A stretch of 36,110 nt of DNA, taken from assembly GCA_025056965.1 (NCBI GenBank), contig JANWVF010000162.1, forward strand, positions 1 to 36,110, read 5' to 3'. The notes under the pieces are model-generated. The model saw nothing but the letters and a program-made list of their open reading frames with translations, had not been told where the DNA came from and ran no database searches. This document shows, one piece after another, positions 33 through 31,602 of this stretch (the stretch's first letter is position 1; each line of letters begins with the position of its first letter). This stretch comes from Thermoflexales bacterium. Lineage in GTDB: Bacteria; Chloroflexota; Anaerolineae; J036; Brachytrichaceae. The translations under genes were made by a program, and so were the position numbers.

Positions 33-971
33 ATGTCCGCTTCAGCTCATGACGTCCCTCCGCTGTGGGCGCACAACCTGGATGCGTATGAGTTTCGCAC
101 CTTTATTGACCTCGTCGAGCGCTACTTCGTCGAGCGTCAGATCCCTGCGCGGGTAAAGGCCGAAGAAGGAGTGGTGCAGACCGAACCCGGTGCCTTCCAT
201 CATTTGAGCGTGCTCGGTCTGCAGAACGTCGCGCAGGCGTGCGCCCAGGTCACCATCGAGCGTTGGCCCAGTCTGATCGCCGAGCACTTTGACTGCATCT
301 TCGCAGTGAGTGGCGACCAGAGCGCCCTGACGGTGGACTTGGGCGACTTTGCCAAAGTGCGCGAGCAGTTGCGTGCCCGGCTATACCCGGTGGATCTGCT
401 CAGTCAGTCTGTCGAGCTCATCCATCGCCCCGGTCCCGAGGGCACGGTCGAGGTGATCGTGTTGGATCTGCCGACCACGATTCGAACGATCTCGCAGCCT
501 GAGGCGGAGCAATGGGCGGTAAGCGCGGAAGAATTGTTCGAGATCGGAAGGCACAACTTGCGGCGCGACGGTCTGTTAGAACCCATGGCAGTCGCCGTCC
601 CGCTGGGTGTACAGATCCTGCTGTACTCCGGTGATCCATACTACACCGCCAGTCACGCCCTCTTCCTCGACGCTTATCTACCCGAAGACCTGCCCTATGG
701 TGCGCTGGTCGGGCTACCCCGGCGCGACGTCATGATGCTGCACCTCATCCGCAACATCGGCGTGACCGAGGCGATTGGCTCGATGCTGCAGGCTATCGTC
801 GGCATGTATAGCGACGGCCCCGGCTCGCTCAGCCCCCATCTCTACTGGTTTCGGCGCGGCGAATTCGTCGTGCTGCCATACGAGTTGAACAACAACGTGC
901 TGGACTTCTCACCTCCCATAGATTTCAGCAGGCTGCTCGAGCGCCTCGGCAAACGTGCCGAACTGTCCTGA
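33..971 (+). CDS. Hypothetical protein, possibly DUF1444/YtpQ-like
   Basis: A 312-residue soluble protein with no signal peptide or membrane segment. The overall pattern resembles the DUF1444 (YtpQ) family of uncharacterised cytoplasmic proteins: a middle stretch with a long acidic helix around residues 165-185 (SAEELFEIGRHNLRR), then a segment describing small/aromatic strands (residues 195-215). This is a resemblance judged by eye, not an established assignment. No catalytic motif could be identified. The start is supported by the -10 box ending 6 nt upstream (leaderless type). The gene is followed by an SDR gene on the same strand after about 106 bp, so co-transcription is possible but not shown. 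Confidence 0.7.
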   Translation: MSASAHDVPPLWAHNLDAYEFRTFIDLVERYFVERQIPARVKAEEGVVQTEPGAFHHLSVLGLQNVAQACAQVTIERWPSLIAEHFDCIFAVSGDQSALTVDLGDFAKVREQLRARLYPVDLLSQSVELIHRPGPEGTVEVIVLDLPTTIRTISQPEAEQWAVSAEELFEIGRHNLRRDGLLEPMAVAVPLGVQILLYSGDPYYTASHALFLDAYLPEDLPYGALVGLPRRDVMMLHLIRNIGVTEAIGSMLQAIVGMYSDGPGSLSPHLYWFRRGEFVVLPYELNNNVLDFSPPIDFSRLLERLGKRAELS

Positions 972-1077
972 GCCGTCCTCAGCCCCGACGCGCGCATCAC
1001 ACAATCGCGGATGCGCTGGCGTCTCTTCGTCGCGCGTCCTGCATCCACAACGCAGATCTGATCTTTGGCGTCGTCGT

Positions 1078-1866
1078 ATGGACTTGCAACTGAAGGACAA
1101 GGTCGCCGTTGTTATGGCAGCCAGCAAAGGGCTTGGCGCGGCTACGGCGCGGGTGTTCGCCGAAGAGGGTGCGCATGTCGTCATCTCGGCGCGCGACGCC
1201 CAGGCACTACACGCAACGGCCGACGACATCGCCCGACGCACCGGCGTTCGTGTGTTGCCGGTGGTCGCCGATTCGGCTAAAGCGGCCGACGTCGAGCGCC
1301 TGATAGATGCGGCCACCCGCGCCTTCGGGCGAATTGATGCGCTGGTGGTGAACGCAGGCGGACCGCCGGCCGGCCGCTTCGTGGATTTTGACGATGCGGC
1401 GTGGCAACATGCCATCGAGCTTACGCTGATGAGCGCCGTCCGCGCGGCGCGCGCGGTAATCCCGGTGATGCGACGGCAGCGCAGCGGCAGTATCACCTTC
1501 GTCTCTTCGGTCAGCGTCAAACACGCGCTCGACAACCTCGTGTTCAGCAACAGCCTGCGCTTGGCTGTAGCAGGCATGGTCAAAACGCTGGCGCGTGAGC
1601 TGGGGCCGGATAACATCCGCGTCAATCTGATCTGCCCCGGCTACACGGCCACCGACCGCATTCTGGCCTTGGCGGCGCTGCACGCCCAGCGGAACGGCAC
1701 GACCGTCGAGGCCGAGCTGGCCAAGTCCGCCGCCAACACGGCGCTGGGGCGGATCGCCTCGGTGGAAGAATTCGCACGGCCGTGTGTGTTCCTCGCCTCG
1801 CCGGCCGCCAGCTACATCACCGGCGCAGCGCTCATCGTGGACGGCGGACAAAGTCGGGCGCTGTGA
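1078..1866 (+). CDS. SDR-family oxidoreductase lacking the canonical Tyr-Lys pair
   Basis: A 262-residue short-chain dehydrogenase/reductase. The Rossmann nucleotide loop is at residues 14-22 (AASKGLGAA), NAGG at 92-95, the catalytic-Ser strand at 143-147 (SSVSV), PGYTATDR at 187-194 and the C-terminal GGQ segment at 256-258. Family members are normally annotated as FabG-like 3-oxoacyl-ACP reductases. Here the usual YxxxK catalytic pair is absent: aligning on the conserved AVAGMVKTLARELG helix puts Ser157 and Arg161 at the Tyr and Lys positions. A subgroup of FabG-like SDRs with this kind of SNxLR segment is known, so this is probably a real divergent subfamily and not decay. The substrate is unknown. 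The start at 1078 (MDLQLKDKVAVV) fits the SDR N-terminus; an in-frame extension to 955 would overlap the upstream gene and has no family match. Confidence 0.88.
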   Translation: MDLQLKDKVAVVMAASKGLGAATARVFAEEGAHVVISARDAQALHATADDIARRTGVRVLPVVADSAKAADVERLIDAATRAFGRIDALVVNAGGPPAGRFVDFDDAAWQHAIELTLMSAVRAARAVIPVMRRQRSGSITFVSSVSVKHALDNLVFSNSLRLAVAGMVKTLARELGPDNIRVNLICPGYTATDRILALAALHAQRNGTTVEAELAKSAANTALGRIASVEEFARPCVFLASPAASYITGAALIVDGGQSRAL

Positions 1867-1897
1867 GACTACGGACAGGTTGACTCAGCGTGGCGTG

Positions 1898-2569
1898 ATG
1901 ACAACATACAAGCTCATCCTCTTTGATCTCGATGAGACGCTATATCCTCGCTCGGCGCAATTGATGGCGACGATCACCGAGCGCATCAATCAATACATCG
2001 CCGGCAAGTTCAACATGACCCTCGAACAAGCGTCTGAGTTGCGCCAGCGCCTCCGCGGACGCTACGGCACGGCCCTCCGCGGCATGATGGAAGAGGGCTA
2101 TCCGGTTGATATAGACGAGTACTTCGACTACGTGCACGACATCGAGCTAAACGGCGTGTTGGCCGCCGATCCTCGGTTGCGCGAGATGCTGCTGAGCATC
2201 CCGCTCCGGCGCGCGGTGCTCACCAACGCCAACATCGAGCATGCCATGCGCATCCTGCGGCACATGGAAATCGAGGATTGCTTTGAACGAGTGATAGACA
2301 TCCGCGCGCTCAGCTTTCGCAATAAGCCCGATCCGTTGTCCTATCAGATCGCGCTGGAGATGTTGCGCGTCGAGGCGAGCGAGGTGATCTTCGTTGAGGA
2401 TACGCCGGTCAACGCGCGCGCCGCACGTGCAATCGGCATGACGACCATCCTGATCGAGTGCCCGCCGAGCGACGCCGCTGATTACTTCCTGGAGAGCATC
2501 CTAGATGTTGGACCGCTGGTGGCCGATTTGCTCCACCGGCAGGATAATCGCCCGAAGGTGACACGATGA
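1898..2569 (+). CDS. HAD-superfamily hydrolase, pyrimidine 5'-nucleotidase-like
   Basis: A 223-residue HAD phosphatase. Motif I is FDLDETLYPRS at about residues 8-18, with the nucleophile Asp and the Asp two residues later. Motif II is LTNAN in the middle, motif III is the Lys in RNKPDP, and motif IV is VEDTPVNARAA near residue 170. The DETLYP signature and a helical cap after motif I match the SDT1/pyrimidine 5'-nucleotidase branch of HAD subfamily IA, which removes phosphate from UMP/CMP-type nucleotides; the exact substrate cannot be told from sequence. The ATG at 1898 is chosen because motif I normally lies within 10 residues of the start. Its stop overlaps the next ATG (ATGA at 2566), which indicates translational coupling to the aminotransferase. 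Confidence 0.88.
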   Translation: MTTYKLILFDLDETLYPRSAQLMATITERINQYIAGKFNMTLEQASELRQRLRGRYGTALRGMMEEGYPVDIDEYFDYVHDIELNGVLAADPRLREMLLSIPLRRAVLTNANIEHAMRILRHMEIEDCFERVIDIRALSFRNKPDPLSYQIALEMLRVEASEVIFVEDTPVNARAARAIGMTTILIECPPSDAADYFLESILDVGPLVADLLHRQDNRPKVTR

Positions 2570-3798
2570 CGACGAACGGAACACAAACACAGACGAAGCC
2601 GCTGCAACGGGTTAGCGCGCGCACGGCTGCCGTGCAACCCTCGGCAACGATGGCCGTGGAAGGTCGCGTCAAGCAGATGCGCGCCGCCGGTGAGCCGGTG
2701 ATCGGGTTCGGCGCCGGCGAGCCGGATTTCCCCACGCCTGAGTTGATTAAGCAGGCGGCCATCAAAGCCATCCATGACAATTTCACCCGCTACACGGAGA
2801 CCGGCGGCATGGCCGCGTTGAAAGAGGCCATTGCAGCGCGCGAGCGCGCGAACACCGGCCTTGACTACAAAGCGAGCCAAGTGGCCACCCACACCGGCGG
2901 GAAAGAGTCGCTTTACCTCGCCTTTCAGGCTTTGTGCGAAGCCGGCGATGAGGTGCTGATCCCCGCGCCGTACTGGGTGAGTTACGTCGAACAAGTGCGC
3001 TTGGCCGAAGCAACGCCGGTGATCGTGCCGACTACCGTGCGCGATCGGTTCAAGGTGACCGGCGAACTGCTGGCGCGTTACACGACGCCGCGCACGCGCA
3101 TCCTTGTGCTCAACTCGCCGTCGAATCCCACCGGCATGGTCTACAGCGAGTCTGAGCTAGAGGACATCGCAGCATGGGCGCGCACGAATGACGTCATCAT
3201 CCTGAGCGATGAGCTATACGACCGCATCGTGTTCAACCCGCCCTACGCTCGCTGGCTGCGCGTCGCGCCCGACCTATACGACCGCACGGTCGTGATCAAC
3301 GGGTTGTCCAAGGCATATGCCATGACCGGCTGGCGCCTGGGCTACGCCGTAGGGCCGGAATGGATCATCAAGGCCATGCTGAAGATTCAGAGCCATAGCA
3401 ACTCGCACCCGACTTCAATCACTCAGGCAGCCGCGCTGGCGGCATACACGAATGATCTCGAGGCTGAGATCGCAGCGATGGTCGCAGCTTTCAAGGAGCG
3501 GCGCGATTGGATCGTGGCTGCGCTGAACGAGATTCCCGGCGTAAACTGCATCATGCCGGAAGGGGCGTTCTACGTCTTCCCGGATTTCACGGGCGTCTTG
3601 GGGCGGCCGTTGAAGTACGGTCGTGTGTGCGACTCAAGCGAGGCGCTGGCAATCTACCTGCTCGACAGCGTCAAGGTCGGCATCGTGCATGGCGAGGCCT
3701 TCGGCGCGCCCGGCTGCGCTCGCTTGAGTTACGCAATGGAGCTCGACAAGATCAAGGCGGGGATCGAACGGATGAAGGACGCCTTGACCTTCGCCTAA
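2566..3798 (+). CDS. aspB: Class I PLP-dependent aminotransferase, aspartate aminotransferase type
   Basis: A 410-residue fold-type I aminotransferase that would exchange amino groups between aspartate (or a related amino acid) and 2-oxoglutarate in the cytoplasm. GAGEPDFPTP at residues 49-58 is the substrate-binding N-terminal motif, NSPSNPTG at 183-190 and Asp215 (LSDELYD) contact the cofactor, and Lys249 in GLSKAYAMTGWRLGY forms the Schiff base. The C-terminal GxARLSYA segment carries the carboxylate-binding Arg. The first 20 residues are a non-conserved extension, so an internal start is possible. It overlaps the HAD gene by 4 bp and is followed by a strong hairpin terminator. Substrate preference within the AspB group (Asp, aromatic, prephenate) is not resolved. 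Confidence 0.92.
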   Translation: MTTNGTQTQTKPLQRVSARTAAVQPSATMAVEGRVKQMRAAGEPVIGFGAGEPDFPTPELIKQAAIKAIHDNFTRYTETGGMAALKEAIAARERANTGLDYKASQVATHTGGKESLYLAFQALCEAGDEVLIPAPYWVSYVEQVRLAEATPVIVPTTVRDRFKVTGELLARYTTPRTRILVLNSPSNPTGMVYSESELEDIAAWARTNDVIILSDELYDRIVFNPPYARWLRVAPDLYDRTVVINGLSKAYAMTGWRLGYAVGPEWIIKAMLKIQSHSNSHPTSITQAAALAAYTNDLEAEIAAMVAAFKERRDWIVAALNEIPGVNCIMPEGAFYVFPDFTGVLGRPLKYGRVCDSSEALAIYLLDSVKVGIVHGEAFGAPGCARLSYAMELDKIKAGIERMKDALTFA

Positions 3799-30385: not shown

Positions 30386-30413
30386 TTGACTTTAGGGCGG
30401 GTTCATTTAATCT
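30386..30413 (+). promoter_or_regulatory. Candidate promoter of the DUF7662-XRE gene
   Basis: TTGACT (30386-30391), a 16-nt spacer and TAATCT (30408-30413), immediately after the hisF stop. It would give a leader of about 65 nt. Confidence 0.5.
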
Positions 30414-30482: not shown

Positions 30483-30980
30483 ATGAGCAAGCCCGGCAGT
30501 AAGTACTATCCTCTCTTCAATTATCTGCGCGAGCGAGAGCAGGACGAGGTCACCCTGACCTTCGCGCAAATCGAGAAGATCCTCGGCCGGCCCTTGCCCG
30601 AAGGCGCGCGCATCGAGCGTGGGTGGTGGAGCAACCGGCGGCGCGCCTCGCCGCAGGCCAAAGCTTGGCTGGACGCTGGTTACAAGGTGGCCGCCGTGGA
30701 TTTACAGCGCAAACAAGTCGTGTTCGCCGTCCCGGCTAAGCTGGCCAGTCGCTATGTCGTCGAACGCGATGGCGACACGATCCTCTGGAACGCCGGCCTG
30801 ATCAAAGCGCTTCGCGAGCACATGAACATGAGCCAGGCCGAGTTCGCCCGCGAGTTGGGCGTGCGCCAGCAAACGGTTAGCGAGTGGGAAACCGGCGCCT
30901 ACACTCCGACCCGCGCCACATCCAAACACCTGACGCTGGTGGCCGAACGCGCCGGCTTCCGCTACGCCCCCGACCTGTAA
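30483..30980 (+). CDS. DUF7662-XRE fusion regulator
   Basis: A 165-residue protein of two parts. Residues 5-82 match the DUF7662 pattern: KYYPLFNYLRERE, VTLTFAQIEKILGRPLPEGA, WWSNRRRASPQAKAWLDAGYKVAAVD (in parts) and the QVVFAV strand. Residues 104-160 are a Cro/C1 (XRE) helix-turn-helix, MSQAEFARELGVRQQTVSEWE at 116-136 (read in two parts). DUF7662 is a domain of unknown function commonly found alone in small proteins. The fusion suggests a DNA-binding switch whose N-terminal domain senses something unknown. GGAGC 5 nt before the ATG supports the start. The next gene has a dyad at its promoter that could be its target; this link is inferred from position only. Confidence 0.82.
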   Translation: MSKPGSKYYPLFNYLREREQDEVTLTFAQIEKILGRPLPEGARIERGWWSNRRRASPQAKAWLDAGYKVAAVDLQRKQVVFAVPAKLASRYVVERDGDTILWNAGLIKALREHMNMSQAEFARELGVRQQTVSEWETGAYTPTRATSKHLTLVAERAGFRYAPDL

Positions 30981-31060: not shown

Positions 31061-31105
31061 TTGACGACTGTCCCTCTACCGTGTATAATGTTGAAAACAC
31101 GGTAG
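31061..31105 (+). promoter_or_regulatory. Near-consensus promoter overlapped by a perfect operator-like dyad
   Basis: TTGACG (31061-31066), 17-nt spacer and TATAAT (31084-31089) form one of the best promoters in the window. A 9-bp perfect inverted repeat, CTACCGTGT (31076-31084) and ACACGGTAG (31097-31105), with 12 nt between, brackets the -10 box and the expected start site. The half-site centres are 21 bp apart, two helical turns, as expected for a dimeric repressor. Confidence 0.75.
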
Positions 31106-31119
31106 CGAGAGAAAAGGCC

Positions 31120-31506
31120 ATGACTAACTCCGACTTCAGCCCGCGCGCACTTTTCATCTCATCCGACGGCATGCTGTATTCCGACTCGCTTATCTGCTCT
31201 GGCCTGCTGCCGGCCAAACTCGGCAACAAACCCTGCCCTTTCGCCGAGGGTAGGCACATGCCGAAGCTGCGCCGGCTCGACCCGACCGATCCACAATACG
31301 ATCCGGCTCAGGGAAAGCCGGGCGAGCTATGTCCGCCGTGCGCCGTGCTGCACGCCGGCGCCCTGGACGACTGGGAGGAACACGAGAAGCTACACCTGCC
31401 GGAGGAAGTCCTACCACTGCGGCTCTTCCAGTGTCGGCAGGCCTTCTGGTTGGTCGTGCCCGGCCTCTACAACGACGACCCGACCCGGCTGATCCTTCCC
31501 CAGTAG
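31120..31506 (+). CDS. Small Cys-containing protein of unknown function
   Basis: A 128-residue cytoplasmic protein I do not recognise. Its N-terminal part contains FISSDGMLYSDSLICSG, followed by KPCPFAEGRHMPK and ELCPPCAVLHAGALDDWEEHEKLHLP. Cysteines in ICSG, KPC, LCPPC and FQCRQ, plus nearby His residues, could bind a metal, but no known zinc-ribbon spacing is complete. The ATG at 31120 lies after GAAAAGG and 31 nt past the -10 box; an upstream in-frame GTG at 31081 precedes the transcription start and is ruled out. Expression should be governed by the dyad operator. The DUF7662-XRE gene directly upstream is the obvious candidate regulator. Confidence 0.75.
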   Translation: MTNSDFSPRALFISSDGMLYSDSLICSGLLPAKLGNKPCPFAEGRHMPKLRRLDPTDPQYDPAQGKPGELCPPCAVLHAGALDDWEEHEKLHLPEEVLPLRLFQCRQAFWLVVPGLYNDDPTRLILPQ

Positions 31507-31602
31507 ATGACGTTCGGCAGCCTCAAGTGACATGGCGAAGCCGAATTCACAGCGACGCTCGTTCGGCGCATTCCCCACATCTCAAGCGCGAGTTTGCGCC
31601 GC

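Follow-up and report, generated by a model that had tools for sequence, protein, structure and literature searches.

Local repressors of the helix-turn-helix (HTH) type that act through palindromes on a sigma-70 promoter are well known. In Vibrio cholerae, the operator of HigA2 (higBA2) is one inverted repeat, which begins after the −35 box and extends over the −10 box (PMC11006873). Aca HTH repressors have one inverted repeat (IR1) within the core promoter, frequently accompanied by a similar one (IR2) next to it (PMC9410906, PMC8434428). The HigA2 operator occupies the position of O1 (PMC11006873), one of the two operator sites that we predict at the locus described here, and HigA2 has the closest solved HTH to that modelled for the regulator of this locus (Z 10.1, 2.2 Å over 62 residues, 31% identity). 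HigA2 neutralises its toxin by a disordered N-terminus and represses its own operon, whereas our regulator carries a DUF7662 domain before the HTH, has a separate promoter and is accompanied by no recognised toxin. The likeness to Aca lies in an HTH repressor, an inverted repeat inside the core promoter and control of a small adjacent gene. Aca genes are autoregulated and occupy a downstream place in the acr operon, while here the regulator gene is upstream, has its own promoter and no anti-CRISPR is recognised. To our knowledge, Aca proteins do not contain DUF7662. The best NCBIfam match of the HTH is the MqsA-type CxxCG_CxxCG_HTH family (TIGR03830; 3.6e-10 over residues 103–155), but at 39.7 bits against a cut-off of 61.8, and over the HTH part only, the regulator does not belong to it. 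MqsA has a zinc-binding CxxC N-terminal domain, in place of which the regulator has DUF7662. In the literature searched we found neither a description of this repressor–operator–target module nor a mention of DUF7662. What distinguishes the module is its poorly known regulator domain and its exchangeable targets.

The window analysed is 36,110 nucleotides of a contig from a Thermoflexales bacterium, and the regulator, the small gene and their promoters lie on its forward strand. The regulator (165 aa, 30483–30980) has Pfam matches to DUF7662 (1.9e-14) and to the Cro/C1-type (XRE) family HTH_3 (3.4e-12). Both are well above their cut-offs: PF24698 covers residues 8–81 with 53.6 bits (gathering cut-off 26) and PF01381 scores 46.6 bits (cut-off 23). 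In the AF2 model (pLDDT 86), only the HTH is covered by Foldseek and VIA-align matches, and C.Kpn2I is among the structural matches; the best matches of the HTH are antitoxin HTHs (HigA2, MqsA and HipB). The recognition helix reads RQQTVSEWE. The probable promoter of the regulator gene itself, TTGACT-16-TAATCT at 30386–30413, is conserved in the genus as TTTGACTTTAAGG...TAATCT and has no operator in it, so autoregulation is unlikely. In one scan of viral contigs no relatives of the regulator were found. The function of DUF7662 is uncharacterised in Pfam, and that it acts as a sensor is a guess. The domain also stands alone elsewhere: in another genome (L103 of G197, 83–3171) a DUF7662 ORF is clustered with PglZ and McrBC genes, a combination typical of restriction or BREX-like islands.

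Downstream of the regulator lies a small gene of 128 aa (31120–31506), called class A below. Its promoter consists of a −35 box TTGACG (31061–31066) and a −10 box TATAAT (31084–31089) with a 17-bp spacer between them. It is overlapped by a perfectly matching dyad, CTACCGTGT-N12-ACACGGTAG (31076–31105), with 9-bp arms at 31076–31084 and 31097–31105, 12 bp between the arms and 21 bp between their centres, exactly as the preliminary description had reported. Taken alone, a dyad with 9-bp arms is unremarkable in the window, which contains 24 overlapping matches at about 13 places (4.8 per dinucleotide shuffle), and the evidence is comparative. What is notable is that the dyad coincides with a promoter at most one mismatch away from consensus, the only such promoter in the window; none was found in 12 shuffles. 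The exact dyad motif occurs once in the 3.13-Mb genome, and the genome holds no second place at up to two mismatches, which leads us to reject a genome-wide regulon. The palindrome ACACGN4CGTGT with one mismatch is found at 51 places in the genome as compared to 156 for a backward control, so these places are background. We also rejected a reading of the dyad as an RNA hairpin: the leader folds worse than most shuffles. The expected start site falls inside the dyad, and therefore only the right arm is transcribed.

Within the genus, nine genomes of Candidatus Roseilinea-type Anaerolineae were compared, one of them Candidatus Roseilinea itself (L046). In five of the nine, the order hisF, DUF7662-XRE regulator, dyad and promoter, small gene, hisIE is intact, so the earlier proposal of a module placed in the his region is borne out: two genes lie between hisF and hisIE. 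Across these five species, 26 of the 28 columns of the core (31077–31104) are invariant, compared with 8 of 72 in the upstream spacer and 3 of 14 in the leader, while the regulator gene differs at 27–47% of its fourfold sites between species. TTGAC of the −35 box is invariant. A single genome, G004, has one arm base changed and a −10 box of TATCAT. The other four genomes show decay or absence. In G002 the regulator is frameshifted and both the small gene and the dyad are gone, in G005 only a remnant is kept, in fused form, G008 no longer has the regulator, the dyad or the beginning of the small gene, and G007 has neither regulator nor small gene. Comparison between species thus indicates that regulator, site and small gene are kept or lost together in the genus. 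As a separate point on annotation, the listed start of the hisIE ORF (31532) is probably too early, with 31532–31590 in question; most alignments with relatives start at residues 18–23, and that with G007 at residue 44.

The class A protein is under purifying selection and has nothing above cut-off in Pfam, NCBIfam, PHROGs, PADLOC or PDB sequences. A structure predicted from five close sequences was unusable (pLDDT 41). All 12 aligned homologues retain cysteines C26, C39, C74 and C105, and C71 is replaced in two; the invariant residues suggest possible metal binding. An HExLH motif was considered as that of a metalloprotease (ImmA/IrrE-like) and rejected, as it is not conserved outside the genus. 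Our first impression that class A is restricted to the genus was overturned by homologues from wider searches. The gene is present in 13 of 396 genomes of the class. Further homologues, with 38–53% identity and with neither regulator nor site, occur in two phage-like IMG/VR contigs of 172 and 121 kb (L124, 5001–5405; L125, 4992–5369) and in a plasmid of Nostoc sp. C052 (L127, 4001–4408).

A class-wide search gave 28 further full-length DUF7662-XRE regulators. A small ORF follows directly downstream in 24 of them, nearly always behind a TTGAC promoter with half-sites. Three of these ORFs (L051, L060 and L067) are class A homologues with 43–48% identity, and the other 21 encode an unrelated protein of 50–65 aa (about 55 aa), class B, with the consensus YxLxxxIxxWxRxxLTxEQAIGQILL. 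Class B has nothing above cut-off in Pfam or NCBIfam and nothing in PADLOC; it is found in 44 of 392 genomes of the class and in none of the window's genus. The remaining four regulators (L059, L061, L063 and L071) have neither partner gene nor site beside them. In another class of the phylum (G450), a regulator is again followed by class A, and HTH-only relatives without DUF7662 adjoin class B genes, before or after them, with the same sites. Judging from these sequences, the unit of repressor and putative site recurs across many Chloroflexota, where it would control a class A or a class B gene.

The relatives also clarify how the dyad is built. At class B loci, a full 14-bp palindrome ACACG-N4-CGTGT fills the promoter spacer up to the −10 box and a second copy lies downstream; the complete palindrome is seen in many relatives, usually twice. 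Exact copies number 30 within about 300 bp of regulators in 31 kb, and the remaining 8 copies in 205 kb all stand before class B genes of the same loci. In the window, two predicted operators can be recognised by comparison. O1 (TCCCT-CTAC-CGTGT, 31071–31084) has a strong inner half CGTGT and a degenerate outer half and covers the first base of the −10 box; its counterpart in L089, AACACGTTACCGTGTATAATG, is at the O1 position with both halves intact (compare TTGACAAACAACACGTTACCGTGTATAATG in L089 with TTGACGACTGTCCCTCTACCGTGTATAATG in the window). O2 (ACACG-GTAG-CGAGA, 31097–31110) lies at the transcription start and has a strong inner half ACACG and a partial outer half CG; L075–L077 have the complete counterpart ACACGGTAACGTGT. 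The step from O1 to O2 (31071 to 31097) is 26 bp, the same geometry as in L080, L083 and L087, where two palindromes stand 26–27 bp apart over the −10 box. Because complete palindrome pairs with the window's geometry occur in relatives, the most plausible reading of the dyad is that it consists of the two inner halves, one from O1 and one from O2. The pair looks like one 9-12-9 dyad since the inner halves (TACCGTGT and ACACGGTA) are strong and the outer ones weakened.

It is also conceivable that one dimer or tetramer of the same regulator spans both inner arms, across their distance of 21 bp, and that the outer halves play no part. The window and its genus do conserve the inner halves only, the outer halves (TCCCT of O1 and CGAGA of O2) being weak and invariant at 1 of 5 and 2 of 5 positions, and strong inner arms are also present in L050, L057 and L060. 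The spacing between the arms in relatives, however, is 12, 13 or 19 bp, or about 55 bp where a hairpin separates the sites. A fixed bridge would not tolerate this variation, which favours two independent sites over one fixed dyad, and in many relatives both places hold a full palindrome. We therefore regard a bridging dimer as rather unlikely, and the dyad more likely represents the inner halves of two tandem 14-bp sites than one dimer site. The preliminary description had seen in it the classic layout of a repressor dimer: a repressor-type operator on the small-gene promoter agrees with our comparison, but the single dimer site gives way to the tandem palindromes of relatives. Some findings go against our explanation by tandem sites bound by the neighbouring regulator: the outer halves in the window are weak, four full-length regulators have neither partner gene nor site beside them, and the 12-bp centre is conserved at 11 of 12 positions in the genus, which is beyond the needs of a promoter and two sites. 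This centre (ATAATGTTGAAA, 31085–31096) is not conserved in other class A loci. TGTT-GAA-AACA spans its border, and the conservation exceeds what the −10 box needs.

That the dyad belongs to the adjacent regulator had been proposed from adjacency. Comparison now gives strong support to this predicted link. In other families, the TTGAC promoter just downstream of an orthologous regulator carries these half-sites at the equivalent position, whether before class A (L051, L060) or class B, so the site appears to follow the regulator across families while the target changes. Recognition helices with QQT go with CGTGT in 23 cases and with CGTAT in none, those with QPT with CGTAT in 5 cases and with CGTGT in none. 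There are five QQT exceptions: L072 and L073 have one-base variants, and in L080, L083 and L087 the target is upstream. In L067, where the helix is divergent (QETISLLE), CGTGT is lost and the dyad is TTGCGAA-N12-TTCGCAA. This covariation is support and not proof, because shared ancestry explains part of it. A dyad kept with the small gene in the absence of the regulator would have spoken against the link; class A genes without the regulator (L100, L124, L125 and L127) have no such site. Conversely, in G276 a regulator (L071) has neither partner nor site, and the palindrome is retained at a class B gene on a separate contig. Separations of this kind link the site with the regulator and the promoter of its target rather than with the class A gene. 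Could the dyad belong to a regulator encoded elsewhere, the XRE neighbour being a coincidence? The class A genes of the phage-like contigs and the Nostoc plasmid exist without the regulator, and 4 of 28 regulators lack an adjacent site, but the site accompanies the regulator family in at least two classes and before two unrelated target genes, changes with the recognition helix and is absent where there is no regulator. A coincidental neighbour is thus extremely improbable.

We consider it highly probable that the dyad serves as operator for the neighbouring DUF7662-XRE protein and that this protein is a dedicated local repressor, whose dimers on the tandem O1 and O2 sites keep the class A promoter off until a signal arrives. 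HTH dimers of the regulator would bind two tandem 14-bp sites of the ACACG-N4-CGTGT type, with O1 covering the spacer and the edge of the −10 box and O2 the start site. Bound sites would exclude RNA polymerase from the near-consensus promoter, so that the class A gene would be off until repression is relieved by a signal, which plausibly acts via DUF7662 or a partner. The comparisons show that regulator and predicted operator are associated, how the sites are built, that they are conserved and that the module is lost as a whole; that the regulator binds, that it represses and does not activate, and that an inducing signal exists is what we infer from this arrangement. Where a near-consensus promoter has sites over its −10 box and start, as here, the implied mechanism is that RNA polymerase is kept out and the gene repressed, by analogy with HigA2 and Aca proteins. 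A few XRE-type proteins are activators, for example the C proteins of restriction-modification systems. With C.Kpn2I among the structural matches, one could imagine a regulator that activates, or switches both ways, and uses the sites to recruit polymerase. Since the promoter is near consensus already and the sites overlap the −10 box and the start, positions typical of repression (PMC11006873, PMC9410906), we hold activation to be very unlikely. A toxin–antitoxin pair with the DUF7662-XRE protein as the antitoxin is likewise very unlikely. The antitoxin HTHs among the best matches and the joint loss of a two-gene unit would fit such a pair. In our locus, however, the regulator has its own operator-less promoter and shares no operon with the small gene. 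Neither class A nor class B matches a toxin family, and the phage-like contigs and the Nostoc plasmid carry class A with no regulator.

For an uncharacterised regulator family of many Anaerolineae, a dedicated local repressor of this kind would supply an operator prediction and an approximate recognition code, in which QQT pairs with CGTGT and QPT with CGTAT. It would tie DUF7662 to a concrete regulatory circuit, with two conserved, unannotated small protein families named as its targets, and the circuit is compact enough for reporter assays in E. coli. As a tentative and rather doubtful extension, DUF7662-XRE proteins and ACACG/CGTGT operators might act together as a plug-in switch across the Chloroflexota, gained and lost as a unit, in which the small cargo gene (class A or B) can be exchanged. 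As class A cargo is common to phage-like contigs and a cyanobacterial plasmid, a role of class A in phage–host or plasmid–host conflict might then be suggested.

Several features of the relatives are worth recording. In L079, L080, L083 and L087 the class B gene is upstream of an HTH-only regulator, and palindromes of the ACACGCGCGCGTGT type are also found shortly before the regulator gene, so these regulators may be autoregulated. In G450, PemK/MazF-like and HicB-like ORFs, identified by eye, flank the class A module (L108, reverse-complement coordinates 1679–2065 and 3061–3360). Class B loci L066, L068–L070, L072–L078, L081, L085 and L089 have a GC-rich hairpin between O1 and O2 (−14.1 kcal/mol in L066 and −16.9 kcal/mol in L078). 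It is located between the start site and O2 and is often followed by a T-rich stretch; its sequence varies while its position is constant. An attenuator or a short terminated RNA is a possible explanation for this hairpin.
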